The position numbers and the translations under genes are program-made. Below are positions 40,851-62,119 of a stretch of DNA of 64,000 nt, one piece after another. This DNA is from Levilactobacillus brevis (GTDB lineage Bacteria; Bacillota; Bacilli; Lactobacillales; Lactobacillaceae). The stretch covers positions 124,001 to 188,000 of the forward strand of contig CP032931.1 in the NCBI GenBank assembly GCA_003666485.1, written 5' to 3'. The notes beneath the pieces were generated by a model, which worked only from the letters and a program-made list of their open reading frames with translations, made no database searches and was not told the origin of the DNA. Each line of letters starts with the position of its first letter. Positions within the stretch are counted from its first letter, which is position 1.

Positions 40851-41357
40851 TTAACCCAATTCATTCCCAGGCTCACCCTTATCAGCCGCGTCGTGGTCCT
40901 GGCTGTCGTCGTCCTTAGGCTTTTTCTCCGGAAACAGCTTGAACATGACTTTGTTGAAGTAGTCCGAAGCGTAGCCGATGACGAAGATACCCATGAACAT
41001 TGAAGCCAGCAGTTCAAAGCAGAACATTGGCCAGCTCTTGATGGTGATGTTGGAGATGATCAGCATGGTCGTCCCCCAAGTGATCAGCCAAGCCGGCACC
41101 TCGGTGAACGGCAGGATGGTTCCTTGCAAGAAGAGGGCCAGGAACGTCAGAATCCCAAACATCACGGACGAAGCCACCAGCCCGGAGATCCAAGACACGT
41201 GCAGCAGGGAGAAGGCCATGAGCCCCCAAATGAGGCCCAGGCAGAAACTCAACAGAATATTCCAGATCTTATCCTTCGGGAAGCCGGCACCGAAGAAGTA
41301 GGAGACCGCAATGAAGGCTGCGGCACCCATCCACAGTGAAAAGCCAGTCATGATCAA
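40851..41357 (-). pseudogene. DUF1097 gene copy lacking its 5' end
   Basis: Same as the intact gene at 52265-52837 from codon 23 onward (about 97% nucleotide identity, mostly silent differences). The first 22 codons and promoter are replaced at about 41358 by island sequence. An internal ATG could still start a 168-residue product without a good ribosome site. It marks the left border of the lanthipeptide island. Confidence 0.75.
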
Positions 41358-41532
41358 GCTGTACTTTAGGTTTCACTTGGAAATTGGACAAGAAAAGCCA
41401 GGAAAGGTTTTCACGCTGGAATACCTCTCCTAGTTTTTTTTGGAAACAGGGTATGCTTCTAAATCCAAAATTGTGAATTGGGCATACATCTGGTTAGACA
41501 AAGCCATTTAATTACGGTTGGTTATGAAAGCG
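41358..41532. other. Island left-border sequence
   Basis: 175 bp between the truncated DUF1097 copy and the lanthipeptide precursor stop. No gene supported. It holds a TAGGAGAGG ribosome-like site followed by GTG and only 13 codons on the minus strand, which may be the stub of a lost gene. Confidence 0.3.
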
Positions 41533-41667
41533 TTAGTGTTTAGAGGTTGGCAAGAATTGTGTTTCAACTTTGCAATCGTGACTGCATGCAATGGTCCAGC
41601 CAGCTTCTTCAGAAGATTCATTAACAGGTTTTACTGATAAGGTTTGTAATGCAAGTAGTTCTTTCAT
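41533..41667 (-). CDS. Class III lanthipeptide precursor peptide (LanA)
   Basis: A 44-residue peptide with a TAGGAGA ribosome site about 10 nt before ATG 41667. The leader begins MKELLALQTLSV: the (I/L)LxLQ box recognised by class III synthetases. An acidic ESSEE stretch separates it from a core that starts near GW and contains TIACSHDC, then threonine/serine residues to a lysine-histidine end. T25-C28 and S29-C32 can form two adjacent four-residue (methyl)lanthionine rings. It is divergent from the LanKC gene, with an IS256 copy now lying between them. Confidence 0.82.
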   Translation of the reverse strand: MKELLALQTLSVKPVNESSEEAGWTIACSHDCKVETQFLPTSKH

Positions 41668-41771
41668 AGATACTACATCTCCTAATTTAAAATTGAAGAG
41701 TGACTTGAGCAACTATTCATTTCAAAAGTATATAGAATAATACTAAGCTAATCGATAGCTAGCCGTAAAAA

Positions 41772-43113
41772 GAGAGCGTAAAATATCTTGTGTAAATGCA
41801 TAAAAGATTTCTGAATTGTATAGAAATAGGGAATGCCTTCCCTTATGATATTTAGTAACCACAGAAAACATCACAGGAGGCATTCCCCATGAATGAACTT
41901 ACCACAGAAATTATCGCTGCACTAGCCCAAAAGCAAGATTTGGACGAAATTTTTCGGCAACATTTGGAAACGGCCATCAATGATTTAATGCACGAGGAAC
42001 TTTCATCGTTCCTCGGTTATGAACCCTACGACCGCCAAGGTTTTAACAGCGGCAATTCACGCAATGGGCATTATCTGCGAACCTTTAAAACTAAGTATGG
42101 GGAACTAAACTTGAAGGTTCCACGCGACCGAAATGGCATCTTTAATACGCAAACTATTCCAAGCTATCAACGCCAAACGGATGGTTTAGAAGCCACGGTT
42201 GTCCAGCTCTACGAAAAAGGGATTACCACTAGTGAGATCGCGGATTTGATTGAGAAAATGTATGGCGCTCATTACACACCACAAACGGTTTCAAACCTCA
42301 CGAAGGTCGTTGACCAACAGGTCAACGCCTTCAAGACGCGCCCTCTAGCGAGCCGTTACGCAGTCATTTATGTGGACGCAACATACTTACCTCTGCGCCG
42401 GGACTCAGTGGCTAAAGAAGCCGTGCATATCGCCATTGGCATTCGACCAAATGGGATGAAAGAGGTCCTAGCATATCAAGTCGCTCCAACTGAATCCAGT
42501 ACCGTTTGGGAAGAACTTCTCGTGGACATCCAGCAGCGTGGTGTAAAAGAAGTCCTCTTATTCGTGGCCGATGGCTTAGTCGGCCTTACCAACACAATTG
42601 GTGACCACTTCCCTAAGGCTAAGCTCCAGCAGTGCCTGGTCCACGTCAGCCGGAACATTGAAGCTCACGTTCGAACTAAGGACCGACAAGAGGCCCTTAA
42701 CGACTTCAAACTGATCCATCAAGCAGCTACCATGGACGACGCAAGACAAGCTTTAGCTGACTTCATAGACAAGTGGCAAAAGACGTATCAAAGAGTAACG
42801 GGCAAGCTAGAAAATAATCCTCATCTCTTGACCTGTTTCACGTTTCCAGCTGCGATACGCAGTAGCATCTACAGCACAAATCTCATTGAGTCGTTCAACA
42901 AGAAGCTAAAACGGCAGACAAAGAAGAAAGAACAATTTCCAAATGAACCAGCACTAGAACGAGTTCTGGTCACAGTTATTCGTGACTACAACGGCCAAAA
43001 TTTTGAGCGAACGCATCGAGGTTTCAAGCAAATTCAGGATACGTTAGAATCCATGTATTAGAAGCTAGCTAATGGGAGAGGACTTCCATTTACACAAAAA
43101 ATTTGACACTTCC
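41772..43113 (+). mobile_element. IS256-family element, copy 1
   Basis: 1342 bp with imperfect 25-bp ends (GAGAGCGTAAAATATCTTGT / GGAAGTGTCAAATTTTTTGT) and a perfect 8-bp target duplication CGTAAAAA (41764-41771, 43114-43121). It sits in the divergent control region between lanA and lanKC. Confidence 0.93.
41889..43061 (+). CDS. IS256 family transposase (copy 1)
   Basis: A 390-residue mutator-type DDE transposase: first aspartate in YVDATYLPLRRD, second in LFVADGLVGL, glutamate in STNLIESFNKKLKRQ. GGAGGCATTCCCC precedes ATG; a short GGGAATGCC/GGCATTCCC hairpin upstream may limit expression. The protein is identical to copy 2, so both insertions are recent. Confidence 0.95.
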   Translation: MNELTTEIIAALAQKQDLDEIFRQHLETAINDLMHEELSSFLGYEPYDRQGFNSGNSRNGHYLRTFKTKYGELNLKVPRDRNGIFNTQTIPSYQRQTDGLEATVVQLYEKGITTSEIADLIEKMYGAHYTPQTVSNLTKVVDQQVNAFKTRPLASRYAVIYVDATYLPLRRDSVAKEAVHIAIGIRPNGMKEVLAYQVAPTESSTVWEELLVDIQQRGVKEVLLFVADGLVGLTNTIGDHFPKAKLQQCLVHVSRNIEAHVRTKDRQEALNDFKLIHQAATMDDARQALADFIDKWQKTYQRVTGKLENNPHLLTCFTFPAAIRSSIYSTNLIESFNKKLKRQTKKKEQFPNEPALERVLVTVIRDYNGQNFERTHRGFKQIQDTLESMY

Positions 43114-43160
43114 CGTAAAAAAATTGAATTGTAAAACCAGGTATCAGCGAGTTGTTAAGA

Positions 43161-43189
43161 TTGAACAACCTGTTGGTATTTTCTATTCT
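43161..43189 (+). promoter_or_regulatory. Candidate promoter of the lanKC operon
   Basis: TTGAAC (43161-43166), 17 bp, TATTCT (43184-43189), about 43 bp before ATG 43232. It lies to the right of IS256 copy 1 and was left intact. Confidence 0.55.
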
Positions 43190-43231
43190 ATGCATACAAG
43201 ATAAAAATTCAAATTGGACGGGGTGAATGAA

Positions 43232-45604
43232 ATGAGTATGGAAGTTTTAAATATTATCTCAAAGAGAAAGGTTTTTATGAAAAATCTGAAGCTTAGTGTT
43301 GATATATTGCCAGAAGATGTTGATGAACTGGTTTTGAGTAAATCAAGCTGTGATGAAGTAAGGATTTTCAGACAATTTAATTTTGCTGCCAGTGAACTTC
43401 CGCATCAGGGATTTAAAATACATGTTTCATGTACTTTGCAGAATTTTCAAGATGTACTGGATAGTGTTTACGTCTACTGCAAAAGAAACATGCTCACTTT
43501 TAAATATATATCGAATTTTGACTACCTTGAATATAATCTTTCTGGTAATGGTGATTTATGGGAGGCAGGCAAGTTTATTACGATTTATCCTACAGATTTG
43601 CGAGAATTTGTAAAAAATATAAAAGGACTCTATAGATGCATTTCTCCAAAAAAGATGCAAGGGATAGCTATTTATACGGATCGTAGGTTCAAGGATGCTA
43701 CGAATATTTTTTACAGATATGGTATTTTATCAGCGAATGGGAATCGAATCATTTATGACTTGAATGGGACTCCACAGTATGAGGATTATAAGCTGTCTGA
43801 ATATTTTCTGCCAAACTTTATTGAAGAACCATTTCCAAAAAATAAAGATGATGGAATGATCTCAAAAAAATTATTCAAGATGTATCAGCCATACCGGGCA
43901 CTAAACTCGAAAGTGTCTGGATCTGTTTTCTTAGCTAAGTATGGAGATGAAGATGTTGTTCTTAAGACTGCTAAGGATGGGTTTAGCGATACAAGAGAAA
44001 CCTGTATTTGTAAGTTGCAACAAGAATCTCATTATTTGAAGGTGCTAGAGGATTGTGAGTGCTTTCCTAAGAAAATCGATTCATTTTGGGAAGACGATGA
44101 TTATTTCTTAATTGAAACAAAAGTCAATGGTGTGGATTTTGATGTTTATCGAGCCACCGTAGTTGATCGCGTAGTGAATAGTGATAGAACAAGAACAAAC
44201 TATTCAGAGCTCAAGAAGATTATGCTTGATTTACTTAACAAGGTGCAGCGGCTGCATATGCGTGGATATTACTTGGGAGATATTTCGAGTGCTAATGTTT
44301 TGATTGATAGCAATACGGATACGGTGTCATTTATTGATTTGGATACGATTTCCGAGTTAAATGTACAAGATAATCAACGAAAAGTTCAGTATAGAACGGT
44401 AGGATTTTATAATTCTGAAATATCACACCTTAGCTTAAATGAACAGGATAACCAGCAAATTGGTTACTTACTTATTTCCTTGTTTTGTAGAGCTAACAGT
44501 TTTTTAGGTGTAGATGAATCTGGGGAAATGACGCTTAGGTTTTTTAAAGAATGGGCGATTAGGTATCATTTACCACTGGTCTTTGTTGAAGTTATTGAGA
44601 TTTTGATAAAAGGCAGGAAAGATTCGTTGAGAAGAAGCATCCAAGTAATAGAAGACGGAAATTTGGAAGTTATCTTTGAAGATGATGAGCATCATGATAA
44701 ATACTCAGCTAAGTATATAACTGACGAGTTAAATAAAACTGTCGAACTGGAGCGATTGAGTAATGGTGGGGTGAACATGCTTTCGCACACTGGAAAGAAA
44801 ATTGCGTGTGATCATTTAAGTGAAGATTTTCCAGTAGGCATCTCAATGGATTCGGACGTGTTAGTTGACATGGCATTTGAATTGCTCCATAAAGATCGAA
44901 GGATGGCAGCAAGATTCTGCAGTTTGAATAGGATTAAAATACTAATAGATGATTTAAGACTGCTCAATGTTAGACTAAATCGGGGAGTAATTGGTGATAA
45001 AGAGAACATCGTGTATATTAAACGTGCGTTGGCTTTGGTGATTTGTACGGGATATGCCTTGCATCATCTAAAATTACGTATGAGGAAGGATAAGTTTAAT
45101 GACAATAGAACGTTAATACTACAGACGTTTGATATGTTGATAACTACTTATTCAGTTTCGATTGATCAGAGTGATAAAATTGGTTTCCGAATTAGTAATG
45201 TATCTCGTTATGTATCTCCATACTTATCTGATGGTATGTCAGGGGTATTGGTCTGTTCCATTTATTTATCTAGATGGTTTAAGACAACTAAGTACGACAA
45301 GTTAATGGAGGAGTGGGGAGAGTCTCTGTCCAAAGTATATTTACCTCAAAGCGTTACATTGTATCGGGGCTTGTCAGGGATTATTTTGGCAGTACTACTT
45401 TTTAGAAAATATAAAAAGAATAGTAAGTATGATCAATGGATATCTAAAAGTAGTTGGGACGTTGGTGAATATCTGTTGAAATATGATCGGAAATTATACG
45501 TTGTAAATGAGTCGTTTCAATTACTTGATTCAAGCTTTGAACATGGAAATAGAGGAGTTTCCTTTGTATTGAAAGAGTTATTGGGGGCAAATCTATGCGA
45601 TTGA
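43232..45604 (+). CDS. Class III lanthipeptide synthetase (LanKC-like)
   Basis: A 790-residue trifunctional enzyme. Residues about 1-200 form the phosphoSer/Thr lyase part, with His64 in KIHVSCTLQN, Lys91 in TFKYI and a GKFITIYPTD block. About 200-500 is a Ser/Thr kinase: GSVFLAKYG loop, VVLKTA lysine, catalytic Asp350-Asn355 (GDISSANVL) and Asp369/371 (IDLD). The rest is a LanC-like cyclase with SDGMSGVL, YRGLSGI and EHGNRGV repeats but no Cys-Cys-His zinc set, which defines class III. ATG 43232 follows GGGGTGAA; an upstream TTG has no such site. AT-rich. It would dehydrate and cyclise the peptide at 41533. Confidence 0.88.
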   Translation: MSMEVLNIISKRKVFMKNLKLSVDILPEDVDELVLSKSSCDEVRIFRQFNFAASELPHQGFKIHVSCTLQNFQDVLDSVYVYCKRNMLTFKYISNFDYLEYNLSGNGDLWEAGKFITIYPTDLREFVKNIKGLYRCISPKKMQGIAIYTDRRFKDATNIFYRYGILSANGNRIIYDLNGTPQYEDYKLSEYFLPNFIEEPFPKNKDDGMISKKLFKMYQPYRALNSKVSGSVFLAKYGDEDVVLKTAKDGFSDTRETCICKLQQESHYLKVLEDCECFPKKIDSFWEDDDYFLIETKVNGVDFDVYRATVVDRVVNSDRTRTNYSELKKIMLDLLNKVQRLHMRGYYLGDISSANVLIDSNTDTVSFIDLDTISELNVQDNQRKVQYRTVGFYNSEISHLSLNEQDNQQIGYLLISLFCRANSFLGVDESGEMTLRFFKEWAIRYHLPLVFVEVIEILIKGRKDSLRRSIQVIEDGNLEVIFEDDEHHDKYSAKYITDELNKTVELERLSNGGVNMLSHTGKKIACDHLSEDFPVGISMDSDVLVDMAFELLHKDRRMAARFCSLNRIKILIDDLRLLNVRLNRGVIGDKENIVYIKRALALVICTGYALHHLKLRMRKDKFNDNRTLILQTFDMLITTYSVSIDQSDKIGFRISNVSRYVSPYLSDGMSGVLVCSIYLSRWFKTTKYDKLMEEWGESLSKVYLPQSVTLYRGLSGIILAVLLFRKYKKNSKYDQWISKSSWDVGEYLLKYDRKLYVVNESFQLLDSSFEHGNRGVSFVLKELLGANLCD

Positions 45605-47181
45605 TGGGAATAATCAGAACAAATAAGGTAAGGAGTTCCATAATTATGATTGTTAGTGTGTTATCCGCACTGTCAATTACATTGGGAAATTATAGCCTGA
45701 CCTTTGCGATTAACGTGTTAAAAAACGGAAATTTGTCTCAATTTATTACGAAAATGGTTTTTTTTATTCTCTTACTACTAGGAGGCTATGTTAGTAATAT
45801 ACTAATGGGTTATTTGTTCAATTCCCAGGTTCAGATATATTCTCATCAATTAAGAGAGAATTTTGTCCAATCAGCCTACAATAACAGTGATACGTCAGTT
45901 GATTTTGTTCAGAACAAGTTGACAAATGATTTAAAAACGCTTACTAATCAATATGCAACGCCTTTGTTCTCAATTTTCACGGGAGCATTGACACTGGCTT
46001 TTTCGTGTGTTGCTCTCTTTACGCTTAATTGGACATTAATGATTCTTGTAGTGGTATTGGCCATTGGTATTCTGTTCTTACCACGGCTACTTTCAAAAAG
46101 TCTGCAAGTTACGACAATGAATGTGTCAAAATCTAATCGAGAGTACTTAAGTACGATTGATGAATGGTTTTCAGGACTTTCTGAAATTAGACGTTATGGG
46201 GCAAAGGGGCATTTTTATAAGGTACTAAGTAGAGAATCAGAACAGCTTGAACAAAATATTATGAAGAGGGTAGGAAAGGTCTGTACGTTGGGAATTCTAA
46301 ATACGTTTGCTAACGTTTTTTCGCAGTTCTTAGTAATCGCATGGACAGGGTATTTGATAAGTAAAAATTCAGTTTCATTTGGAACGATTTTGAGTGCAGG
46401 ACAATTTGCTGAAATTATATTTAATGGAGTAGTTACAATCTCCAATTCTTTTGGCTCTATTTTGTCTTCAAAAACGTTAAGCAAAGAGTTTATGGAGCAT
46501 GCAAGGCAAGTGAAGAATATCAGAGAAGGGCCAGACAATAATCCTAATCAAGTTAGATGTCTAGTCACTCATAAATTAACTAAAAGTTTTCCGAATGGCG
46601 AAACGCTTGTCTTTCCAGATCTATGTATTCGTATGGGAGAAAAGATTTTAATTACAGGAGATAGTGGTAGTGGCAAATCGACACTATTGAAAATTCTCAT
46701 TGGAGAAGTGGAGCCTACAAAAGGTAATGTAGAGTTTTTGAATGGTGAGTCTAAAACTGTGAAAGTTAATTTAAATAAAATTGGATATATTCCACAAGAT
46801 GCAATATTGTTTCCAGATACAATTAAAAACAATATAACGATGTTTAATGCAAAGCTTGATTCGCTTATTAACGAAGTGGTCAAAGGTGCAGATTTGAAAA
46901 AGGACATTGATTCTTTTGATTCTGGACTTGGTACAGTACTCAACTTAAAAGAAAAGAATTTTTCAGGAGGTCAGCGACAAAAGATTATAATTGCAAGAGC
47001 AGTAATACATGAGCAGAAGATTCTTATTATTGATGAAGGGACATCGGCTATTGATTATGAGGGTACGTCTGCCATATTGAAGTCTCTGTTAAGCTTACCA
47101 ATTACTGTTTTATTTGTTGCCCACAATTTTGACGCTAGTACTCGTAGCCTTTTCGATCGCGAGATTTGCATAAAGAAGTGA
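45595..47181 (+). CDS. ABC transporter, fused TM and ATPase domains (LanT-like)
   Basis: A 528-residue half-transporter. About six TM helices lie in residues 1-300; the nucleotide-binding domain has Walker A GDSGSGKST (355-363), Q-loop YIPQD, signature FSGGQRQK, Walker B ILIIDEGTSAID and an H-loop VAHN. No N-terminal C39 peptidase domain, so leader removal needs another enzyme. Its ATG overlaps the end of lanKC by 10 bp, showing tight coupling. Probable role: export of the lanthipeptide. Confidence 0.85.
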   Translation: MRLMGIIRTNKVRSSIIMIVSVLSALSITLGNYSLTFAINVLKNGNLSQFITKMVFFILLLLGGYVSNILMGYLFNSQVQIYSHQLRENFVQSAYNNSDTSVDFVQNKLTNDLKTLTNQYATPLFSIFTGALTLAFSCVALFTLNWTLMILVVVLAIGILFLPRLLSKSLQVTTMNVSKSNREYLSTIDEWFSGLSEIRRYGAKGHFYKVLSRESEQLEQNIMKRVGKVCTLGILNTFANVFSQFLVIAWTGYLISKNSVSFGTILSAGQFAEIIFNGVVTISNSFGSILSSKTLSKEFMEHARQVKNIREGPDNNPNQVRCLVTHKLTKSFPNGETLVFPDLCIRMGEKILITGDSGSGKSTLLKILIGEVEPTKGNVEFLNGESKTVKVNLNKIGYIPQDAILFPDTIKNNITMFNAKLDSLINEVVKGADLKKDIDSFDSGLGTVLNLKEKNFSGGQRQKIIIARAVIHEQKILIIDEGTSAIDYEGTSAILKSLLSLPITVLFVAHNFDASTRSLFDREICIKK

Positions 47182-47203
47182 GTGAGCATTGGTGAGGTGT
47201 GTA

Positions 47204-47281
47204 ATGGATTATTTACTTAAAGATTGGAAGTGTCAAATTTTTTGTGTAAATGGAAGTCCTCTCCCATTAGCTAGCTTCTAA
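47204..47281 (+). pseudogene. Severed 5' end of the M13 peptidase gene
   Basis: GAGG and ATG 47204 lie 22 bp after the transporter stop. Seven codons (MDYLLKD) run into IS256 copy 2 and stop at 47281. If the IS and one target duplication are removed, this start is in frame with the peptidase at 48584, giving 531 residues. This is the original start and ribosome site of that gene. Confidence 0.8.
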
Positions 47282-48567
47282 TACATGGATTCTAACGTAT
47301 CCTGAATTTGCTTGAAACCTCGATGCGTTCGCTCAAAATTTTGGCCGTTGTAGTCACGAATAACTGTGACCAGAACTCGTTCTAGTGCTGGTTCATTTGG
47401 AAATTGTTCTTTCTTCTTTGTCTGCCGTTTTAGCTTCTTGTTGAACGACTCAATGAGATTTGTGCTGTAGATGCTACTGCGTATCGCAGCTGGAAACGTG
47501 AAACAGGTCAAGAGATGAGGATTATTTTCTAGCTTGCCCGTTACTCTTTGATACGTCTTTTGCCACTTGTCTATGAAGTCAGCTAAAGCTTGTCTTGCGT
47601 CGTCCATGGTAGCTGCTTGATGGATCAGTTTGAAGTCGTTAAGGGCCTCTTGTCGGTCCTTAGTTCGAACGTGAGCTTCAATGTTCCGGCTGACGTGGAC
47701 CAGGCACTGCTGGAGCTTAGCCTTAGGGAAGTGGTCACCAATTGTGTTGGTAAGGCCGACTAAGCCATCGGCCACGAATAAGAGGACTTCTTTTACACCA
47801 CGCTGCTGGATGTCCACGAGAAGTTCTTCCCAAACGGTACTGGATTCAGTTGGAGCGACTTGATATGCTAGGACCTCTTTCATCCCATTTGGTCGAATGC
47901 CAATGGCGATATGCACGGCTTCTTTAGCCACTGAGTCCCGGCGCAGAGGTAAGTATGTTGCGTCCACATAAATGACTGCGTAACGGCTCGCTAGAGGGCG
48001 CGTCTTGAAGGCGTTGACCTGTTGGTCAACGACCTTCGTGAGGTTTGAAACCGTTTGTGGTGTGTAATGAGCGCCATACATTTTCTCAATCAAATCCGCG
48101 ATCTCACTAGTGGTAATCCCTTTTTCGTAGAGCTGGACAACCGTGGCTTCTAAACCATCCGTTTGGCGTTGATAGCTTGGAATAGTTTGCGTATTAAAGA
48201 TGCCATTTCGGTCGCGTGGAACCTTCAAGTTTAGTTCCCCATACTTAGTTTTAAAGGTTCGCAGATAATGCCCATTGCGTGAATTGCCGCTGTTAAAACC
48301 TTGGCGGTCGTAGGGTTCATAACCGAGGAACGATGAAAGTTCCTCGTGCATTAAATCATTGATGGCCGTTTCCAAATGTTGCCGAAAAATTTCGTCCAAA
48401 TCTTGCTTTTGGGCTAGTGCAGCGATAATTTCTGTGGTAAGTTCATTCATGGGGAATGCCTCCTGTGATGTTTTCTGTGGTTACTAAATATCATAAGGGA
48501 AGGCATTCCCTATTTCTATACAATTCAGAAATCTTTTATGCATTTACACAAGATATTTTACGCTCTC
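47226..48567 (-). mobile_element. IS256-family element, copy 2
   Basis: 1342 bp, opposite orientation to copy 1, same ends. Perfect 8-bp target duplication TAAAGATT (47218-47225, 48568-48575), different from that of copy 1. It inserted in codon 8 of the peptidase gene. The right end places TTTACA (48543) 17 bp before TCTAAA at the junction, a possible hybrid promoter. Confidence 0.93.
47278..48450 (-). CDS. IS256 family transposase (copy 2)
   Basis: 390 residues, identical in protein sequence to copy 1; DDE residues intact. Confidence 0.95.
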   Translation of the reverse strand: MNELTTEIIAALAQKQDLDEIFRQHLETAINDLMHEELSSFLGYEPYDRQGFNSGNSRNGHYLRTFKTKYGELNLKVPRDRNGIFNTQTIPSYQRQTDGLEATVVQLYEKGITTSEIADLIEKMYGAHYTPQTVSNLTKVVDQQVNAFKTRPLASRYAVIYVDATYLPLRRDSVAKEAVHIAIGIRPNGMKEVLAYQVAPTESSTVWEELLVDIQQRGVKEVLLFVADGLVGLTNTIGDHFPKAKLQQCLVHVSRNIEAHVRTKDRQEALNDFKLIHQAATMDDARQALADFIDKWQKTYQRVTGKLENNPHLLTCFTFPAAIRSSIYSTNLIESFNKKLKRQTKKKEQFPNEPALERVLVTVIRDYNGQNFERTHRGFKQIQDTLESMY

Positions 48568-48583
48568 TAAAGATTGTAAAGCA

Positions 48584-50149
48584 ATGGATTATTTTGAGAA
48601 AATAAATGGGCCGCTTATACAGTCAGTATCGAGTAGTCTAAGTGAAGATGGTTTTCTTTTGAATCAAACTATTGTGATGAGCACGTTCAATGATGTGTTG
48701 GAAGGAATGTCTGATAATATTAATAGTTCATTAATCAGAGTTGCAAAGGAGGGGTTCCTAGAAGATTTGAAAAGAGAAATAGGAACAATTGACAGTTTAA
48801 AGGATGAAAGGGACTTGTCATCTATAGATGATATTTCCCGAGACTATAACTTAGTAATGCCGTTTGAATTAAAAACAGTGCGAGTTAAAAAGATAATTAA
48901 GAAAGTTTTGGTTAGAAATAGAATTGAGAATGTAGCACGCAGGCGGAAACAAATGTGTAAAGTTATTCATTTCTTATTTAAAGGAACAGCTAAAGACATC
49001 AGTGTAAATGACTTTTATCTAAAAGTAGTAAATTTTGAAAGAATCATGGCTAACGAAGCTTTTGATTCATCTGACCAGAAGTACTTTTATGTAGAGCAAG
49101 CGTCTAATCACCAAAATGTTGATACAATTCTTGTAATGCAGAATAAGTATCAATGCAATGAAGTATATAATGTTATTATTAAACATTTTGATGAATTTCG
49201 TTGTTGGGTGCTGTTGGCAACAGCGCTGAGCAACAGTATGTTTTTGGGAATGCACTTTTTTGAGTTAGCAACGGGTATGTCTTCTGGTGATAAGAGTATG
49301 GATAAATTGCTGAGTAAAAGCATTATGCTTCGGCTTTATCCTCAACAAATTATGGTTAATGTCTTAAAGCGATTGAACGTTGAGAATACAGTTAGGCGAC
49401 TAGCGGATTTTGTTAGAATCTTACAAGCAAGAGAAGTATCGTTAACTTGCTTTACCACTGCTGCGTCCAGGCTAATGCAGGTAACGGAAATTGTTCTTCC
49501 GAGGTTCTCCAAAGAAAGACCTGAAGAAGTTATTCCAACGACATATCAAGAAGTTATTAGTATTTTAAAGAAAAACAAATTAGCTGATTTCACTCAAAAT
49601 GAGCTGCTTCAAATTATAACGAGGGGAATTTTTTTCGACAGAGAGAGATTGAAGATTACGGTGCCATTAAGCTTTTTGATGCCACCGTATGTTGAAAAAT
49701 CACACTTCTATGGGCTAAGTGTGATTTTATCTCATGAATTATTTCATTCAATTGATTCAGTAGCTAGTCGGAGAATCAATACAGGATTTGTGGAAAATCA
49801 AAATTTGGCAGATATTTCTAGGAAGATTGTGCAGAAAATTCAACATATTTCCTTTGACGGCATCCCATTGGCTCCTGGTAAAACGAAAAATGAAGACTTA
49901 GCTGACTATGTTGGTTTGCATGTTGCCTTTGAAGTGTCGTCGAATTTAACGGATAGTTTTTTCCAGGAGGCTTTTTTTGAAGCGTATGCAAAGCTTTTCT
50001 TAGTCCATTTGACTATTAGTGATCAAAAGGAAGAAATACTGAAGTCAAAACATTCACCAGTTTTTGTGAGATGTAATCTGCAGTTGAGTTTGTTGCCATC
50101 ATTTCAAACATGGTGTAGAAAGACCAAAGTAACACCGATGTTTGGATAA
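48584..50149 (+). CDS. M13 (neprilysin-like) metallopeptidase, N-terminus cut by IS256
   Basis: A 521-residue remaining frame. The zinc site is HELFH (384-388) with Glu437 and Asp441 in NEDLAD. His490 and Arg496 (HSPVFVR) match the substrate-binding pair of neprilysin with the same spacing, and PLSFLMPPYV just before the zinc site fits the family. Shorter than usual M13 enzymes (about 630-700). It was the third gene of the lanKC-transporter operon; ten residues and the ribosome site are now separated. It is the best candidate for leader removal or core trimming. Expression from ATG 48584 is uncertain. Confidence 0.8.
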   Translation: MDYFEKINGPLIQSVSSSLSEDGFLLNQTIVMSTFNDVLEGMSDNINSSLIRVAKEGFLEDLKREIGTIDSLKDERDLSSIDDISRDYNLVMPFELKTVRVKKIIKKVLVRNRIENVARRRKQMCKVIHFLFKGTAKDISVNDFYLKVVNFERIMANEAFDSSDQKYFYVEQASNHQNVDTILVMQNKYQCNEVYNVIIKHFDEFRCWVLLATALSNSMFLGMHFFELATGMSSGDKSMDKLLSKSIMLRLYPQQIMVNVLKRLNVENTVRRLADFVRILQAREVSLTCFTTAASRLMQVTEIVLPRFSKERPEEVIPTTYQEVISILKKNKLADFTQNELLQIITRGIFFDRERLKITVPLSFLMPPYVEKSHFYGLSVILSHELFHSIDSVASRRINTGFVENQNLADISRKIVQKIQHISFDGIPLAPGKTKNEDLADYVGLHVAFEVSSNLTDSFFQEAFFEAYAKLFLVHLTISDQKEEILKSKHSPVFVRCNLQLSLLPSFQTWCRKTKVTPMFG

Positions 50150-50230
50150 TTGTGAGCTGAAAGTTGATGAGCAGCCAGTTATTGGTTGTTTATTTACTGA
50201 ATGATGAATTGTAAACCAGCCGGATTTAAA

Positions 50231-51833
50231 TTATAGGGACATGAACATACGAAGAAATGAGTCTGGGACAAAACCATAGAATCTGAAGTAATAAGTGGTG
50301 TTAATTGCCGGTTCGTGGCAATTAACACCACTTTTCTTTGGCATGATATGAGCCTGTTTAACTGTCTTCGATAACTTTGATAGGTTCTCAGCCATTAAGG
50401 CAATGCCAATCTCATTGGTAGCTGCGGTTAAGCCGCGAACTGAGAATCGTTTGAACTTCAGGTAGGTCTTTAAATCAGCGAAGATTGGTTCAATCTCAAT
50501 TTTACGATGCGCATACAAAGCATGGCCAACCTTACTAGTCAGCCGTTTCTTCGCCTGGTCTTTAAAGTAAAGCCAATTTTCACACTGATTTGACGGCGGT
50601 TACCGCTCTTGGTTGTCGCCAAAGTCTCGCGCTTTGGGTCTTCAAAGTATTTGACTGAGCGATAAACCTTAAATTGTCTTTCGTAGCCGTAGCGGTCATG
50701 GCGGGTACTGTAATGGTGAAAAGTAAAGATTATGCCATCAGGATCGGTGTACTGATCGTTCAGTTCATCGTATTGCCAGTTAGCGACTTTGCGCCGGTCT
50801 TTATGATAAGAACGGGTTTGTTCTTTTTCGTACATGCCATAAGGAATCAAATACTTAGTTTGAAAGTCATCAGTAAGCTTTTGGTAGTTCATCTCACTGC
50901 CATACCCAGCGTCCGCCACCAAATATTGAACGACTCGCGGCGACTGTTTAAAGATATGCGTCACGAATGGAATCAAGGTTCACGTATCCGTTGGGCGCTG
51001 GAAAAGCTGATAATAAAGGGCAAATTGTCGTTGACTGGCGACCTGTAAATTATATCCTGGTTTTAGTTGGCCATTTCTCATGGGATCCTCTTTCATCCGC
51101 ATGAAGGTCGCATCATGATCAGTCTTCGAGAAGCTATTTCGGTCACTAAAGGTCTTCTCAGCCAGCTCATAGCGCTGTTTACGAGGTAAATAGTCCGTCG
51201 TCAACAGGTGGAGAAAATGCTTTAATTTCCGGCGATGACGTTTGGCTTGTGAACCACCACGATGCGGCTTTTCTAAGTTGATTTTTCAGTTAAACTATTG
51301 ATTGCGAGTGTTAAGTTAGTGGTTAATTTAATCAGCTCAGCACTAGTTAACGCGCATTTTTGCGGCGAGAAATGCGGTACGGATACTTGATAATTCAACA
51401 ATTCTTGATAAAGCGAGGCCGTCTTATCATCGAGCTTAGGTTCGGCCTTCTCAATGGATTTACGCCAGACAAACGTGTATTTATTAGCGTCAGCCAAGAT
51501 CTTCGTCCCATCAATGAAAAGTGCGGAATTATTGAAGAGGCCGATCATCGTCAGGTAATCACGAAAGGCGCGAAAGAGCCCTTCAATCAGTCTCAAGGTT
51601 TTAGGATTACTGCGGAATCGATTGAAGGTACGATAACTCGGAATGGCCAGATTTGGGCCAATGAACCAACGCATCACTAAGTTTTCGTTGGCCATTTGAA
51701 CTAGCTTACGTCCCGAAAAAGTCCGGCGTAAGTAACCGAAGAGCCAAAGCTTTAAGAGTAACTGTGGCGGATATGAAGGTCGACCGGTAGGAGCTGAACT
51801 GGTTTGAAAAGTAGCGGTCGGAATATCGTCCAC
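50231..51833 (-). pseudogene. IS1182 family transposase, fragmented
   Basis: The pieces in order are 51273-51833 (DUF772-type N-terminal region, GRPSYPPQLLLKLWLFGY, then LFIDGTKILADANKYTFVW), 50980-51204, 50539-50976 (VADAGYGSEMNYQKL) and 50231-50518 (C-terminal RKIEIEPIFADLK). At least three frameshifts or stops separate them, and about 30 N-terminal residues are missing. Inactive. Confidence 0.8.
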
Positions 51834-52104
51834 AATAGCGTTAATAGCCCATGCGACGCTGTTTGGTTGAGGTTGCCAAGATAGATTGAGTTTTTAAAGT
51901 GGTGCGATTACTGGTATAATTCATTTGCATAGAGTTGGTTATCTCTTTTCTTTTTTGGTTCAGCACCTAAAGAATAGCAGGGATTACCATCTCTGTGTAT
52001 ACATAAGCTCAAAAGGGGTCCTCTCAAGAAATCATACGATTTCTTGAGAGGACCCCTTTTAATATGCGAGTTGGGAGTTTTGTCCCAGGCTCTTTCCTTC
52101 GTAT
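50247..52104 (-). mobile_element. Decayed IS1182-family element
   Basis: About 1.86 kb between inverted ends that read ATACGAAG...GAGTCTGGGACAAAAC (left, ending 50274) and the matching GTTTTGTCCCAGGCTC...CTTCGTAT (right, 52077-52104). No clear target duplication. It contains a transposase broken into several frames. Confidence 0.7.
52011..52060. terminator. Perfect 23-bp hairpin
   Basis: Arms 52011-52033 and 52038-52060, 4-nt loop ATAC, AAAA/TTTT at the ends. Bidirectional terminator-like, inside the right part of the IS1182-type element, shielding it from outside transcription. Confidence 0.75.
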
Positions 52105-52264
52105 TGTTTGTACATAAAATTTAGATGATTGAAACGATAAAAAGAAGTTAGTTTTTCTTAAAGTTGATATCCCAATATCCCAAATTCTAGAATTATCTGA
52201 CTAGTAAACTTAACACCTGATCGATGGTCAGCTATCCCTTGTTTTACTCATAAACAATAGCTCT
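52105..52264. other. Island right-border sequence
   Basis: 160 bp of AT-rich sequence between the IS1182-type element and the DUF1097 stop codon. No gene seen. The match to the left DUF1097 copy begins about here, at TTAACCCAATTC. Confidence 0.35.
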
Positions 52265-52837
52265 TTAACCCAATTCATTCCCAGGCTCGCCCTTATCAGC
52301 CGCGTCGTGGTCTTGGCTGTCGTCGTCCTTAGGCTTTTTCTCCGGGAACAGCTTGAACATCACCTTGTTGAAGTAGTCCGAAGCGTAGCCGATGACGAAG
52401 ATACCCATGAACATCGAAGCCAGCAGTTCAAAGCAGAACATTGGCCAGCTCTTGATGGTGATGTTGGAGATGATCAGCATGGTCGTCCCCCAAGTGATCA
52501 GCCAAGCCGGCACCTCGGTGAACGGCAGGATGGTTCCTTGCAAGAAGAGGGCCAGGAATGTCAGAATCCCAAACATCACGGACGAGGCTACCAGTCCGGA
52601 GATCCAAGACACGTGCAACAGGGAGAAGGCCATCAGCCCCCAAATGAGGCCCAAGCAGAAACTCAACAGAATATTCCAGATCTTATCCTTCGGGAAGCCG
52701 GCACCGAAGAAGTAGGAGACCGCAATGAAGGCTGCGGCACCCATCCACAGTGAAAAGCCAGTCATGATCAAGCTGTAAACGATGGTGAACCCACCAACGC
52801 CGATGGAGTCGAACCAAACTTTTTTACTAATTTTCAT
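52265..52837 (-). CDS. DUF1097 family membrane protein
   Basis: A 190-residue protein with five to six TM helices and an acidic, charged tail (EKKPKDDDSQDHDAADKGEP). It fits DUF1097. It is intact, with a start and promoter region, unlike the copy at 40851. It lies next to preA on the same strand, but a terminator at 52942-52995 separates them. Role unknown; small-molecule transport is possible. Confidence 0.75.
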   Translation of the reverse strand: MKISKKVWFDSIGVGGFTIVYSLIMTGFSLWMGAAAFIAVSYFFGAGFPKDKIWNILLSFCLGLIWGLMAFSLLHVSWISGLVASSVMFGILTFLALFLQGTILPFTEVPAWLITWGTTMLIISNITIKSWPMFCFELLASMFMGIFVIGYASDYFNKVMFKLFPEKKPKDDDSQDHDAADKGEPGNELG

Positions 52838-52941
52838 GATGTGATTTCCCCTTTACTAGTTAGCGCTTCCATTTCTCAGTCAGAATACCAGTGTATCTGA
52901 TTCTGTGAAATGGCGCAAGGACTTTAGGTAAAACGTTTAAA

Positions 52942-52995
52942 CCCAAAATGAGGCGGACCCCAAACGCAATGTTTTTGGCCCAGCCTCTTTTGGGG
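52942..52995 (-). terminator. Terminator of the preT-preA operon
   Basis: CCCAAAATGAGGC / GCCTCTTTTGGG arms (52942-52954, 52983-52994) with an inner hairpin, downstream of the minus-strand stop at 53061. Confidence 0.65.
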
Positions 52996-53060
52996 CGTCA
53001 CACCCCGATCACTCAAATTTTTTAAATCCCCCGGACAGCGGGCGTGACGCGCTTGTCGTT

Positions 53061-54332
53061 TTAGAAGTGCGTTAAGCGTGGTGACTCGATCTTGATATCT
53101 TCTGGATTGCCTTCACGGCCTGGCTTCATCACAACTTCACCGGTCGAGATGGCGCCCACTGGGCAGACCAGGTTGCACAGGTGGCAGCCGACACATTTTT
53201 CGGTATCGACCGTTGGGCGGCGAGCTTCTTCATTCCAGGAGATAGCTTGGTGCGCGCCATCGAAGCAAGAAATGTAGCAGCGGCCACAACCGATACACTT
53301 GTCCCAGTCGATCTTAGGGTAGACTTTGTAGTCCCGGTTCAGAGACTCAACGGGAACGATGCTCTTGTTGGCAGCGCCAATGATTTCTGACAGGTGGTCA
53401 ATCCCTTGTTCTTCCATGTAGTGCATCAACCCGTTCTTCATGTCTTCCACGATCCGGTAGCCGTATTGCATAACGGAGGTGGTTACTTGAAGAGTAGTTG
53501 CCCCTAACAGGAGGAATTCAGCGGCGTCTTGCCAAGTTTCGATCCCACCGATCCCGGAGATTGGCAGTTGTTCCAGACCAGCGGCTTCCCGTAATTGTTG
53601 GATAAAGCGTAAGGCGATTGGCTTAACGGCTTTCCCGGAGAACCCGGAGATGGAGCCCTTGCCGTCAACCGTTGGTAAGGCCGTCTTGCGGTCGATATCT
53701 AAGTTGGCGATAGACTTGACCGTGTTGATGGTCGCAATCCCATCAGCCCCGCCATCCAGGCTGGCTTTAGCAGCTGGCACCATGTCGGTGATGTTGGGTG
53801 TCATCTTGGCTAAGATTGGTAAATCAGTTCCGCGACGAACGGCGGCACAGTACTTCTTAACTAATTCAGGGTTAGTCCCAACATCAGAACCCATTTCGTG
53901 AGAGGTCATCTGTGGGCAAGAGAGGTTCATTTCAATCATGTCAGCCTTGGCTTCGGTGACCAATTGGGCCAGTTCTTCCCAGTCTTGTTCGTTGGTCCCC
54001 ATGATGGAGGCAATGATGATCTTGCTTGGGTAGTTTTCCTTTAACTTCTTCAAGTCATGCAGGTTTTCTTCCAAGGAGTGTTCGGCAATTTGTTCCATGT
54101 TCTTGAACCCAACGAACGGGGTGCCTTCCTTGGTCAGTTCATCAAACCGTGGGGAAACTTCGTCAACTTTAAAGTGCTTAGGGCCAATCGTCTTGAACGC
54201 AACCCCAGCCCAGCCTTCATCAAAGGCCTTGGCACACATTTCATAACAGTTATCTACTGGCGAAGATGATAGGAGGAATGGATTTTCAAAATGTACTCCT
54301 AAGAAATCTACGGATAAGTCTTTTTTAATCAT
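53061..54332 (-). CDS. preA: NAD-dependent dihydropyrimidine dehydrogenase subunit PreA
   Basis: A 423-residue FMN enzyme. A dihydroorotate-dehydrogenase-like barrel ([37 protein letters not shown]) is followed by two C-terminal 4Fe-4S motifs, [11 protein letters not shown] and [11 protein letters not shown]. It reduces uracil and thymine to the 5,6-dihydro forms together with PreT. Its ATG overlaps the PreT stop by one base, so the two are translationally coupled. Confidence 0.9.
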
Positions 54333-55594
54333 TATTCGTTACCTCCTACCAAGTCGGCTTCTTTTGCGTCGCCCATAATCATTTTGTCCATTTGTTCTGC
54401 AACTTCTTTACCCTTGCGAACGGCCCAAACCACGGTCTTGTCGCCTTGGGCAATGTCACCCGTGACGAAGACCTTAGGATCAGCGGTACCGTAGCCAGCG
54501 TAAGGAACTTCTTCATGCTTATCAATAGTGATGCCGAGGTTAGCGGCGTTGACGCGTTGACCAACAGCCAAGATGATCTTGTCGGACTTGATGGTCATTT
54601 CACTATCAATGTGACGGTGTTTGAAGGTGACTTCATTGCCGTTCACAGCGGTTGGCACGTAGCCGTCGACGATTGTCACGCCGGCTTCACGAGTGCCTTT
54701 GAGTTCCTTCTTGGAAGCTTTGAATTCGTCAAATTCTTCGTAAGCCATGTCGGTAACGTTCTTAACGTTTAAGCGGCGTAAGGTCGTGGCCACATCCATG
54801 GCAACGTCCCCACCACCAACGACAACGGCGTTTTCAGGCAAGTCAGTGATGTTACCTTTGGCTTCCTTGACACGAGCTAAGAAGCCGACTGCCGTTTCAA
54901 CGTTTTCGTTGTTAGCAAACATCGGTAAGACCTTGCTTTCGCTGGCCCCAACGGCGATAACAACGGCGTCATTGTTGGCTTTCAGTTCGTCCATCATGAT
55001 GTCTTCACCCACCGTGGTGTTGTAGTGGATGTTGGCACCTAAGTTGACGATCCGCTTGATTTCGTATTCCACGATGTCGTTTGGCAGACGGTATTCTGGA
55101 ATCCCGTAGGTCAGGTAACCACCGGCCTTTTCGGCTTTTTCGTAAATGTCTACGGCGTAACCCTTGGTCAACATGGTCGTGGCAACTTGTAAGCCGGCAG
55201 GACCACTCCCAACGATGGCGATGTGGTGGCCGTTGGACTTGCCTTGCTTTAAGATATCCATCTTAGCGGCTTGTTCAAAGTCGGTGACGTAGCGTTGAAT
55301 CCCACCAATATCAATGGGGCAGTCAATGCCAGTCCGGGAGCAGGCCAATTCACAGTACTTTTCGGTTGGGCAGACGCGGGCACAGATGGCACCCAAGGCG
55401 TTGTTTTCCCGAATCGTTTCGGCAGCACCCTTGACGTTGTTGAAACGCACGCTGCGGATGAAACGCGCTGGGTCAGTGTCAGCGGGGCAAGCCTTGGAAC
55501 AAGGTGCGTCGTGGCAAAGCAGGCAACGAGCAGCTTCTTCCATCACAGTGGTCATGGTGTATCCTGGGGCTTCTGTTTCGTATTTTTTAGTCAT
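54332..55594 (-). CDS. preT: NAD(P)-dependent dihydropyrimidine dehydrogenase subunit PreT
   Basis: A 420-residue flavoprotein like the glutamate synthase small subunit. N-terminal cysteine-rich FeS region ([34 protein letters not shown]), FAD loop [10 protein letters not shown] near 130 and NAD loop [10 protein letters not shown] near 265. It passes electrons from NAD(P)H to PreA. GAGGGTATCAGC precedes ATG 55594. The hydrolytic genes that usually follow in pyrimidine breakdown are not in the window. Confidence 0.9.
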
Positions 55595-55747
55595 GCTGAT
55601 ACCCTCACTATCTTTTTTTGATTTGGTTGATTGCTATAATGATGAGGCCCGTGATGGGTTGGATAACCTGGTTATGTAACTTGTTATTTCTTTCACGTGC
55701 CTTGAACACTTAGAGAATAGCATGTCTAGCGGATACGGTAAAAAATT

Positions 55748-55790
55748 CCCGGCAATTCTCACGGATATTCGTGAAAATGCCGGGTTTTTA
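55748..55790. terminator. Hairpin in the preT leader region
   Basis: CCCGGCA/TGCCGGG arms (55748-55754, 55778-55784) with an inner TCACG/CGTGA pair and T runs on both sides. It lies 150 bp upstream of preT, after a TATATAAT-rich stretch on the minus strand. Terminator or attenuator. Confidence 0.5.
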
Positions 55791-56099
55791 TATATAATTA
55801 TATATAGAAAAAACACCAACCATTTGGCATAATTGAGGGTTTTGCCTAATAGTTAGCGCTCGTAAACTGCCGTGAAAACGTGATTTAACAAGGATTTGGC
55901 CGTTTTTGATGAAAATGATGAAATTTTTCCATGTCATTTTGGCATAAAATACTGGCGACATTTTATTCCTAACTTTATGCGGGAAATTCTGGCAGTGGGT
56001 ATATTTGGTCAGGCGGCTAAACCAGGAGTGCTCATCCCAGCGCAAACCGCTGGCGTATGGTTAAATGGAAGTAACCTAAACGAAGGTCGGTGGACAATT

Positions 56100-56957
56100 T
56101 TGACTGATGAGATTAATTTACTGGTGACCCTGAACGCGGGCTATTTGCCGCCACTGAAGGTCATGCTGTACTCGGTACACGCCAATAACCCGGGCGAGCG
56201 GATTCATCTGTGGCTGTTGCACGCCTCATTGACGCCAGCAGAAGTGGCAGCGGTACGGCAACTTACGGATGCGTTTGGCTGGACGCTCAGTAATGAACAA
56301 GTGACCACGGACTTTGCGGCGGGGGTGCCCCTGATCAAGCGGTATCCCAAAGAAATGTACTTTCGCTTGCTGAGCGGGCAAATTTTACCGCCAACGGTGA
56401 AGCGGGTCATCTATTTGGACCCGGATCTGTTGGTGATTAATCCGCTGCGGCCTTTGTGGGAAATTGATTTGCGGGGGAAGATGCTGGCGGCAGCCGTTCA
56501 CCGCGGCGTGACCAAATTGGTTGATGGGCTGAATCAGCTGCGACTGGGCACGACGACAGCTTACTTCAATTCCGGCGTGCTGGTGATTGACCTCGACCAA
56601 GCGCGGGCTAAGATCAAATTGGGTGACATTACCGCTGCCATTCAGAAGTACGAAAGCGAGCTGATCTTGCCAGACCAAGACATTTTAAACTTCCTGTACG
56701 GCGCGGACATTTTGGAGATTCCCGAGGAAATCTGGAATTACGACACGCGCAAATACTTCGTCTACCAGACGCGCAGCCTGAACGCCCACGAGATTCACTG
56801 GGTGATGGCCAACACGGTGGTACTGCACTATTGTGGCACGCCCAAGCCGTGGGAAGCGACCAGCGACAGCAAGTTCACCGGGCTGTTTTTGACTTATCAG
56901 CAGCAGTTGCGGCGGTTGGTGGCGAGACTTGGTAACGGGTCACGAAAGGTCGAGTAA
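56100..56957 (+). CDS. Glycosyltransferase family 8 protein
   Basis: A 285-residue GT-A enzyme. LLVTLNAGYLPPLKVMLYSVHANNPGE at the start and IYLDPDLLVINPL near residue 105, whose DPD is the DxD metal-sugar site, define GT8. YFNSGVLVIDLDQAR and the LHYCGTPKPW C-terminal motif are also typical. TTG 56100 is chosen: GGTGG lies 7 nt upstream, and the 68-residue extension to 55896 has no family similarity. It probably transfers glucose or galactose to a cell-surface acceptor. Confidence 0.85.
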   Translation: MTDEINLLVTLNAGYLPPLKVMLYSVHANNPGERIHLWLLHASLTPAEVAAVRQLTDAFGWTLSNEQVTTDFAAGVPLIKRYPKEMYFRLLSGQILPPTVKRVIYLDPDLLVINPLRPLWEIDLRGKMLAAAVHRGVTKLVDGLNQLRLGTTTAYFNSGVLVIDLDQARAKIKLGDITAAIQKYESELILPDQDILNFLYGADILEIPEEIWNYDTRKYFVYQTRSLNAHEIHWVMANTVVLHYCGTPKPWEATSDSKFTGLFLTYQQQLRRLVARLGNGSRKVE

Positions 56958-57165
56958 GCTATTTTCCAGCCCGAATTGGCCAAATCAGATGCTTGCGTCA
57001 GCTTGCCCTGGGGATCACCTCCAGCCTGAGTAAGGCTGTCAAGGATCCGCTAGTCTCTTGCCAATGTGTGTCATGACGCTGTAAACAACTAGTTTTATCC
57101 TTATGAATCGCGCTAAAGGAATGCGTCTAGTTGGCTTCTGTCTTTCAAGTTTTAAGAGTAAGTTT

Positions 57166-57203
57166 AATAGCCGTCGACTGTAGTAATGATGTCGGCGGCT
57201 ATT
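57166..57203 (-). terminator. Terminator of the AraC-family gene
   Basis: AATAGCCG/CGGCTATT arms just beyond the minus-strand stop at 57220. Confidence 0.6.
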
Positions 57204-57219
57204 CGTATGGCCATAAATG

Positions 57220-58149: not shown

Positions 58150-58325
58150 CGTGATTGACTCCTCTCGTGAGTGTAGCGATTCATATTTGGTTAAGCACTA
58201 TTTTCACCCGTTTTGGGCACGTCGTCTAGATGTAATGGCCTAAAAGTGAGAAATTACCACTAAATCGCCTGCTAATAGTTATAAATAAACACCTTTCCTA
58301 CAAAATACACCATTTTTAACGTAAT

Positions 58326-58339
58326 TGAAACCGTTTACA
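58326..58339 (+). promoter_or_regulatory. Catabolite-responsive element (cre)
   Basis: TGAAACCGTTTACA matches the CcpA consensus TGWAANCGNTNWCA at all 14 positions, 93 bp before the GH36 start. Predicts glucose repression. Confidence 0.85.
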
Positions 58340-58340
58340 A

Positions 58341-58358
58341 TTAGGCTAAATAACCTAA
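58341..58358. promoter_or_regulatory. Inverted repeat, candidate AraC-family operator
   Basis: TTAGG (58341-58345) / CCTAA (58354-58358) separated by 8 bp, directly after the cre site. Confidence 0.35.
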
Positions 58359-58431
58359 TTGCTAGGGAAATGATTATCTGGATTCAGTAACCTACTTAGA
58401 CAGATTGGTCGGTTAGAAAGGGAAGATAAGG

Positions 58432-60534: not shown

Positions 60535-60543
60535 CTTTAAACC

Positions 60544-60579
60544 AAGACCTGTTCGGCTTACTTGAGCCGAACGGGTCTT
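60544..60579 (+). terminator. Terminator of the GH36 gene
   Basis: AAGACCTGTTCGGCT / AGCCGAACGGGTCTT, 15-bp arms with one G-U pair. Confidence 0.75.
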
Positions 60580-60713
60580 GTTCACGTCTGGTGAGGAATA
60601 CGGTACCAGTAGATTCTGATAGAAATTGCGTGGAAATTAACGAATGTGAGATTTTAACACTAATTCGCATTAGGCCCGTTACTTTATACCACTAAATGTA
60701 CGTTATCGTTTGT

Positions 60714-62092: not shown

Positions 62093-62119
62093 GACAAAAA
62101 TTCTGAGGAGTTGAACACT

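Follow-up and report, generated by a model that had tools for sequence, protein, structure and literature searches.

Class III lanthipeptide systems of the Bacillota, among them ThurKC/ThurA1, the bacinapeptins and the paenithopeptins, pair a lyase-kinase-cyclase synthetase lacking zinc ligands with a precursor carrying an LxLQ-type leader. According to the available text of PMC8960859, cores of the Pre_24 group (bacinapeptins and paenithopeptins) follow the pattern S-x2-S-x(2-5)-C, and the leader peptidases recorded in the accessible parts of PMC7268733, PMC10885120 and PMC8960859 are M16B pairs and enzymes of the S8, S9 and M1 types. LanKC has also been reported via antiSMASH from bee Lactobacillus Firm5 in PMC10673953, whose available text mentions neither an [ST]xxC precursor family nor an M13 peptidase or a link to Rgg. 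The window analyzed here is a 64,000-nucleotide stretch of Levilactobacillus brevis DNA (G000:C1:124001-188000; genome of 3.10 Mb in five contigs) in which an earlier note had proposed a class III gene set at 41533-50149. Its synthetase and leader are of the Bacillota class III kind. In contrast, the cores of the window and its relatives carry [ST]-x-x-C (Ser or Thr, two residues, Cys) once or twice, the cluster contains an M13 enzyme, and the window-type synthetases form a separate tree group. We give a probability of roughly 0.82 to the reading that the cluster was acquired horizontally and serves the biosynthesis of a very small class III lanthipeptide, predicted to have one or two four-residue rings. 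The locus is a mini-core variant of a class III cluster that was hit recently by two copies of an insertion sequence (IS).

The precursor is encoded by the 44-codon frame with a ribosome site that had been pointed out before, at 41533-41667 on the minus strand, with an ATG start and an AGGAG sequence 11 nucleotides upstream (MKELLALQTLSVKPVNESSEEAGWTIACSHDCKVETQFLPTSKH). The 44-mer begins MKELLALQTLSV, and the frame contains both features ascribed to it, an LxLQ-type leader box (ELLALQTL) and TIACSHDC in the core. Aligned leaders place the predicted leader at residues 1-23 (41599-41667, minus strand), its end being a guess, and the predicted ring region covers residues 25-32 (TIACSHDC; 41572-41595, minus strand), where Thr25 would pair with Cys28 and Ser29 with Cys32. 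A leader LELQL motif is critical in ThurKC according to the accessible part of PMC10604976. The ELLALQTL box is alignable across four precursors, and the leader gives a weak match of 13.9 bits, under the cut-off of 22, to the NCBIfam class III precursor model NF038154. The labionin motif S-x2-S-x(2-5)-C is absent from the 44-mer, also with Thr allowed for Ser, and [ST]xxC is present instead.

The five nearest synthetase loci (L. gasseri plasmids, L. kefiranofaciens, L. jensenii, L. psittaci and Lactobacillus sp. ESL0246, by its name presumably a bee Lactobacillus Firm5 strain) each have, at the corresponding position, a small divergent open reading frame (ORF) whose leader is ELxxLQxL-like. 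The peptides are MQELIELQELDVEVNATEAEWTGICSNQISTK in L. gasseri, MEELDKLQKLVEVQDVVEGSGPWFSYKCTINN in L. kefiranofaciens, MEEMLKLQKLCVQTEKGKDTKVDFTNFTWKCKMTD in L. jensenii, the L. jensenii peptide with V12A, G17D and T34K in L. psittaci, and MELMTSLQELSTKNVDYISGPELFSKFCSNKFTIFCEI in ESL0246. They were picked by position, ribosome site, Cys content or leader and not by ring motif. Across the window peptide and the five relatives, Ser/Thr stands at -3 of each of the eight core Cys, and two more Cys sit in leaders. This regularity strengthens the T25-C28 and S29-C32 ring assignment made earlier, which stays a prediction. The precursor-synthetase gap is 123-204 nucleotides in the five relatives and 214 nucleotides in the window when the IS and its duplication are left out, and the synthetases of L. 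kefiranofaciens, L. gasseri, ESL0246 and L. jensenii are 32-37% identical to that of the window. The precursor is a real gene; members of its family adjoin related synthetases and keep the leader box and the [ST]-x-x-C core. The earlier note had made its proposal depend on a conserved small peptide beside homologous LanKC genes and on maintenance of the 44-codon frame. Each of the five nearest loci has such a peptide, and the frame, leader box and ring motif are kept in the relatives. The class III interpretation gains from these peptides and is well supported.

A list of 23 peptides, 17 of them distant members chosen by eye with the motif in view, has Ser/Thr at -3 for 26 of 29 Cys; the other offsets between -1 and -8 reach no more than 5 of 29. 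Distant single-ring candidates are TFGC in Lactococcus, TAYC in Carnobacterium, TIYC in S. cuniculipharyngis, TFKC in E. gallinarum and TYKC in Streptococcus. A second sample consisted of 48 LanK(C) loci from 46 Lactobacillales genomes, drawn from the two profile searches of genomes given below, taken regardless of precursors and with three repeats and the window's own genome excluded. A leader-like ORF with [ST]xxC lies within 1.2 kb at 16 of these 48 loci versus 1.9 expected from dinucleotide shuffles, and with the leader filter off an [ST]xxC ORF is found at 28 of 48 versus 7.4 expected. Two of the 16 positive loci, L161 and L180, carry the same precursor in one genome, and L021 and L163 look canonical. 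The strict filter misses the other 32 loci, and at least five of these (L024, L166-L169) have an [ST]xxC ORF without the strict leader pattern. A set of 155 loci in which redundant ones were kept gives [ST]xxC in 108 of 179 leader-like ORFs lying up to 1.2 kb from the synthetase and in 26 of 105 at greater distance.

Database searches define the distribution of the synthetase. A tblastn search of 72,556 plasmid records returned 70 with a match; one match (L. kefiranofaciens) covers at least 80% of the query in one place, and three L. gasseri plasmids cover 79%. The same type of search with the precursor gave no match in plasmid records. Plasmid-record annotations of the enzyme clade read 'serine/threonine protein kinase', 'hypothetical protein' or 'lanthionine synthetase LanC family protein'. 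The synthetase profile matches 32 of 397 Lactobacillaceae genomes, spread over 15 of the 40 genera (E <= 1e-10), and 21 of 395 Lactobacillales genomes (E <= 1e-30), the window's own genome included in both counts. LanKC-like genes are thus not rare in the family, a correction to the earlier note. The single synthetase protein found no relative in the genome-contig search, and an alignment used as the query did; the best 80 of 231 relatives were retained (79 loci), including L. psittaci, L. jensenii, L. kefiranofaciens and Lactobacillus sp. ESL0246. The viral contig search returned a single distant relative of the synthetase.

The synthetase gene occupies 43232-45604 on the plus strand with a likely ATG start at 43232 and GGGGTG six bases upstream; a longer ORF opens at TTG 43214. 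Residue numbers are those of the 796-aa ORF. The identification of this protein as LanKC-type is confirmed by a RamC_N match (PF25816) of 95.5 bits against a cut-off of 27 (E 3.7e-27), which corresponds to an N-terminal phosphate lyase domain. Residues K251, E271, D356, N361 and D375 are present, and we take these to be the catalytic Lys, Glu, Asp and Asn and the Mg-binding Asp of the kinase. No Cys-His pair was found in residues 500-796, which leaves the cyclase part without zinc ligands. A class IV synthetase (LanL) was considered and rejected on the missing Cys-His pair and a NF038150 score of 146.1 bits, lower than that of the class III model. The best solved structural relative is 8SAO, which we take to be ThurKC because the residues fit the numbering in the available part of PMC10604976 with an offset of three. 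Six of the eight ThurKC lyase residues, K65, H67, K94, K117, D152 and R163, are conserved in the window protein as K68, H70, K97, K120, D156 and R168. The synthetase keeps most of the lyase and kinase catalytic residues, and its cyclase part is degenerate.

Several observations weigh against the class III reading. The Pkinase (29.1 bits, cut-off 31.7) and LANC_like (22.0 bits, cut-off 23.2) matches of the synthetase both fall slightly short in Pfam; the LANC_like score rises to 29.8 when neighbours in frame are included. The NCBIfam LanKC model NF038151, though the best-scoring model, gives 230.6 bits against a cut-off of 575, so the protein is placed as a divergent LanKC relative. That cut-off is an annotation threshold rather than a functional definition, and the synthetases of L. 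gasseri and four others score 237.6-316 bits, all under 575. The other two of the eight ThurKC lyase residues, K108 and R191, are replaced by G111 and K193 on the same partial literature numbering. No peptidase of the M13 kind was found beside the relatives, so that what ties the M13 enzyme to leader removal is its neighbourhood in a single genome. The cluster may have been silenced by the IS insertions. Finally, the precursor lies below every curated family cut-off tried (Pfam and NCBIfam), and the 43-aa precursor call lacking the first residue gives zero NCBIfam matches. A short ORF with such scores could be a chance reading frame, but its position, leader and core are conserved in five relatives, and the enrichment of leader-like [ST]xxC ORFs over shuffles already contradicts chance, making this explanation extremely improbable.

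The class III reading leads to the following pathway. The ELLALQTL leader would dock on the synthetase, the kinase would phosphorylate Thr25 and Ser29, and the lyase would remove the phosphates to leave dehydrobutyrine and dehydroalanine. Addition of Cys28 and Cys32 to these residues would give two adjacent four-residue (methyl)lanthionine rings. With less certainty, the M13 peptidase may cleave off the leader, possibly just N-terminal to Trp24, and the ABC protein may export the product. The cut before Trp24 is proposed because most relatives have a hydrophobic or aromatic residue ahead of the ring (20 of the 23 listed peptides for the first ring, Ala counted). Further Ser/Thr in the tail and leader offer the Cys other partners, and a labionin would be another form of closure. 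Both are improbable, since [ST]xx[ST]x(2-5)C is absent from the 44-mer and the relatives with a single core Cys constantly keep Ser/Thr at -3. As to function, the product probably acts either as an antagonist of narrow range or as a signal.

The 50 rows of the synthetase tree were chosen by hand out of 155 loci, in part on the presence of a precursor; L. psittaci (L081) is not among them. The window groups with L. gasseri, ESL0246, L. kefiranofaciens and L. jensenii (support 100/99), with G636 as sister (98/97). This group lies inside a set of 28 rows (99/95), all Lactobacillales except one Salinicoccus, that is separate from 22 rows including the canonical SxxSxxxC types. An [ST]xxC ORF lies near 28 of the 28 rows, which is not an unbiased rate as the rows were partly selected by precursor. 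The G636 locus (L202:6945-7124) has a 59-aa precursor upstream of the sister synthetase with W-TAVC, F-TLIC and an additional Cys (STAKQC), and could thus be a member with several rings.

About half of the 28 synthetases are short, approximately 606-672 aa. LANC_like is above cut-off in the Lactococcus protein (24.7 bits, residues 541-610), and weak in Carnobacterium (15.2 bits). The Streptococcus k-402, G724, G115 and S. cuniculipharyngis proteins (approximately 644, 648, 704 and 727 aa) give no LANC_like match at E 0.01. The C-terminal part of the tested short relatives is reduced and not always absent. Class V lanthipeptides are made by phosphorylation and lyase chemistry without a classical LanC, and the LanC part is likewise undetected in some relatives of the window enzyme. 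The window lyase and kinase differ from class V in forming one RamC/LanKC-type polypeptide that keeps a degenerate LanC part. Among the Lactococcus and Streptococcus loci L008, L144, L145, L164, L165 and L166-L169, the kinase-lyase proteins are mostly 615-670 aa (the L169 frame has 458), and each locus has a 27-32 aa [ST]xxC peptide. L008, from a Lactococcus lactis plasmid, carries its peptide in duplicate, and its synthetase has a shortened cyclase part. The partner gene of these clusters is annotated as a major facilitator superfamily protein in Lactococcus, and similar-sized partners at two Streptococcus loci have no Pfam match.

Some clusters of the wider clade are accompanied by Rgg-like regulators. 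Six were tested, picked for Rgg-like size and start; five match Rgg_C above the Pfam cut-off, and the E. gallinarum protein scores 23.1 against 27. The neighbour lists of the G386, G339 and G636 clusters show no adjoining Rgg-sized regulator, and Rgg_C has no match in the window genome, so the Rgg link holds for part of the clade only. None was noticed among the listed neighbours of the five nearest clusters, where the L. jensenii contig is only 4.7 kb; L. kefiranofaciens has a 225-aa helix-turn-helix protein 6 kb from its cluster. These regulators, the tiny size of the peptides and the frequent lack of antibacterial activity in class III products (available text of PMC10673953) would fit a lanthionine-stabilized pheromone instead of an antimicrobial. 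The gaps in the Rgg association listed above count against a signalling role, as does the chance that Rgg controls synthesis without sensing the product, and we consider this role unlikely for the window peptide. A broader and slightly more speculative proposal, also unlikely, is that a Lactobacillales kinase-lyase clade, many of its members with a shortened or barely recognizable cyclase, makes one- or two-ring [ST]-x-x-C mini-lanthipeptides, many of them Rgg-tied, ring-stabilized intercellular signals. The rings would close with little cyclase help, and the window cluster would represent an Rgg-free branch with a recruited M13 leader peptidase.

The exporter gene (45595-47181, plus strand) encodes membrane (PF00664) and ATPase (PF00005) domains. 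As the earlier note had stated, it is peptidase-less, with no peptidase domain among its Pfam matches, and it is 37-38% identical to the exporters of two relatives. The M13 assignment of the following gene also stands at the level of the domain: PF01431 matches at 34.0 bits against a cut-off of 24.5 in the remaining frame of 521 aa (48584-50149, plus strand). Its HELFH (384-388), E437, D441, H490 and R496 align with the HExxH, Glu, Asp and C-terminal His/Arg of six proteins resembling PepO, the M13 oligopeptidase of lactic acid bacteria. Unlike PepO, the window protein is shorter, and identity is only 19-23%. The AlphaFold model has a mean predicted local distance difference test score (pLDDT) of 48.6, too poor to judge the M13 fold. 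Searches with the peptidase gave a match in 280 of 301 Lactobacillaceae genomes (E <= 1e-3) and in 4 of 395 Lactobacillales genomes (E <= 1e-9, own genome included); among the matches listed, none besides the peptidase itself starts before its residue 314. A tblastn search of plasmid records with the peptidase gave no match, and the host genome encodes a separate PepO-like M13 peptidase.

A role of the M13 enzyme as leader protease is plausible from its position and residues. A 2023 review of leader peptidases for ribosomally synthesized and post-translationally modified peptides gives M1, M16, M61, S8 and S9 types for classes III/IV, and its available text has zero occurrences of M13, PepO or neprilysin (PMC10885120). 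By this review and by literature searches, from which subscription papers were mostly out of reach, an M13 leader peptidase would be new. The protein could instead be an immunity protein or an unrelated passenger of the island, a view to which we give only slightly less than even odds. Such a role would agree with the lack of this gene beside relatives, with the restriction of the listed matches elsewhere to residue 314 onward, and with the lack of any match to it in the plasmid records. The intact active-site residues, the 22 nucleotides that separated the gene from the exporter before the IS insertion, and the removal of class III leaders by metallopeptidases of other families (accessible text of PMC10885120) favor leader removal.

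The cluster has a G+C content of 0.35 compared with 0.51 for window positions 1-40800 and 0.48 for 52838-64000. The segment 41364-52264 is flanked by a 513-bp direct repeat of DUF1097 sequence, 97.5% identical: a partial gene at the left end (40851-41363, minus strand) repeats 52265-52777 of the complete gene at the right end (52265-52837, minus strand). In four related genomes (L189-L192, 13-15 kb each) both window DUF1097 copies match one single place, and 41364-52261 has no match. The synthetase occurs in 1 of 35 genomes of the host genus, the window genome, and in none of the other 34, and the first 20 kb of contig C3 have their best matches in L. brevis plasmids, which points to Levilactobacillus as host; the description of the gene set as being 'in a lactobacillus' therefore has to be taken broadly. 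From the low G+C, the flanking repeat, its single copy in relatives and this distribution, we read the segment as horizontally acquired. Transposase-like pieces lie between the peptidase and the right end (50194-51833, minus strand), with DUF772 in 51273-51833 and no Pfam match for 50539-50976. Beside them, near the right end, is a perfect 23-nucleotide inverted repeat (52011-52060).

Two IS256-family elements with Transposase_mut domains interrupt the cluster, one between the precursor and the synthetase (41772-43113, plus strand) and one inside the peptidase gene (47226-48567, minus strand). The 1342-bp copies are 100% identical and in opposite orientation, and each has an 8-bp target duplication: CGTAAAAA at 41764-41771 and 43114-43121 for the left copy, and TAAAGATT at 47218-47225 and 48568-48575 for the right. 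Contig C1 holds six full-length identical copies, these two included, and on this basis the insertions look recent. Inversion of the segment between the copies was considered and rejected, as each copy has its own matching duplication and none match across copies. The elements are simple insertions, and the segment between them has kept its orientation. The divergent arrangement of precursor and synthetase, described correctly before, is older than both insertions. The parts of the gene set are likewise present as described; the two IS copies and the loss of the peptidase start had been missed. The claim of one AT-rich operon is right as to composition, and as to a single operon it holds for the pre-insertion state.

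The left IS divides the precursor-synthetase intergenic DNA and leaves approximately 100 nucleotides of original DNA on each side. A promoter scan of the remaining original DNA upstream of the precursor or synthetase found no correct-strand match. Judged by the flanks and the target duplication, the right IS has cut off the original peptidase start and first seven codons (47204-47225, plus strand), leaving GAGG at 47194 and ATG 47204 on the exporter side. The remaining frame opens at ATG 48584, ten codons further in, and has no Shine-Dalgarno-like sequence. Together, the IS copies, the displaced start and the missing promoter match make expression of the cluster and peptidase production in the host strain doubtful, and precursor, synthetase and peptidase expression may be reduced or lost. 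The cluster might accordingly be a relic, its frames open but its promoters and peptidase start cut by the IS, from which nothing mature is made in this strain. We regard this as a real possibility, held with less than even confidence. The recent, identical, duplication-flanked copies and the state of the upstream DNA and peptidase start would all be expected of a relic. All frames except the peptidase start are intact, however, and most catalytic residues are kept. Promoters can be supplied by IS256-type ends, and the separate PepO-like peptidase is present in the genome.

No description of [ST]xxC cores or of the Rgg link was found in the available text of PMC8960859, PMC10673953, PMC7268733, PMC10885120, PMC10604976, PMC10134562, PMC13067958, PMC10206099 or PMC10826417. 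The accessible part of PMC8960859 lists Pre_181, a group of class III precursors from Lactobacillus, which may overlap the present [ST]xxC family. Should the prediction hold, the product would be a very small lanthipeptide made by an enzyme clade with the plasmid-record annotations quoted above. Precursors of 27-44 aa provide test cases for the minimum size of a class III substrate, and the same clade bears on how much of a LanC-type domain four-residue ring closure needs. The window cluster bears on whether an M13 peptidase can remove a class III leader, and the Rgg link of some relatives makes the idea of a lanthionine-stabilized signal testable in Lactococcus.

A second cluster in the window genome was considered and rejected: the LanKC profile matches the genome once, and the other LanC match is only a 51-aa fragment on contig C3. 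This C-terminal LanC fragment (G000:C3:15864-15989; L002:1492-1650) lies beside an rve-domain transposase on a plasmid-like contig and appears to be a remnant of another lanthipeptide cluster. Elsewhere, the Anaerococcus prevotii plasmid pAPRE01 (L009:9060-9920) carries a class III cluster in which several precursors stand in tandem, close to a radical S-adenosylmethionine CXXX-repeat maturase.

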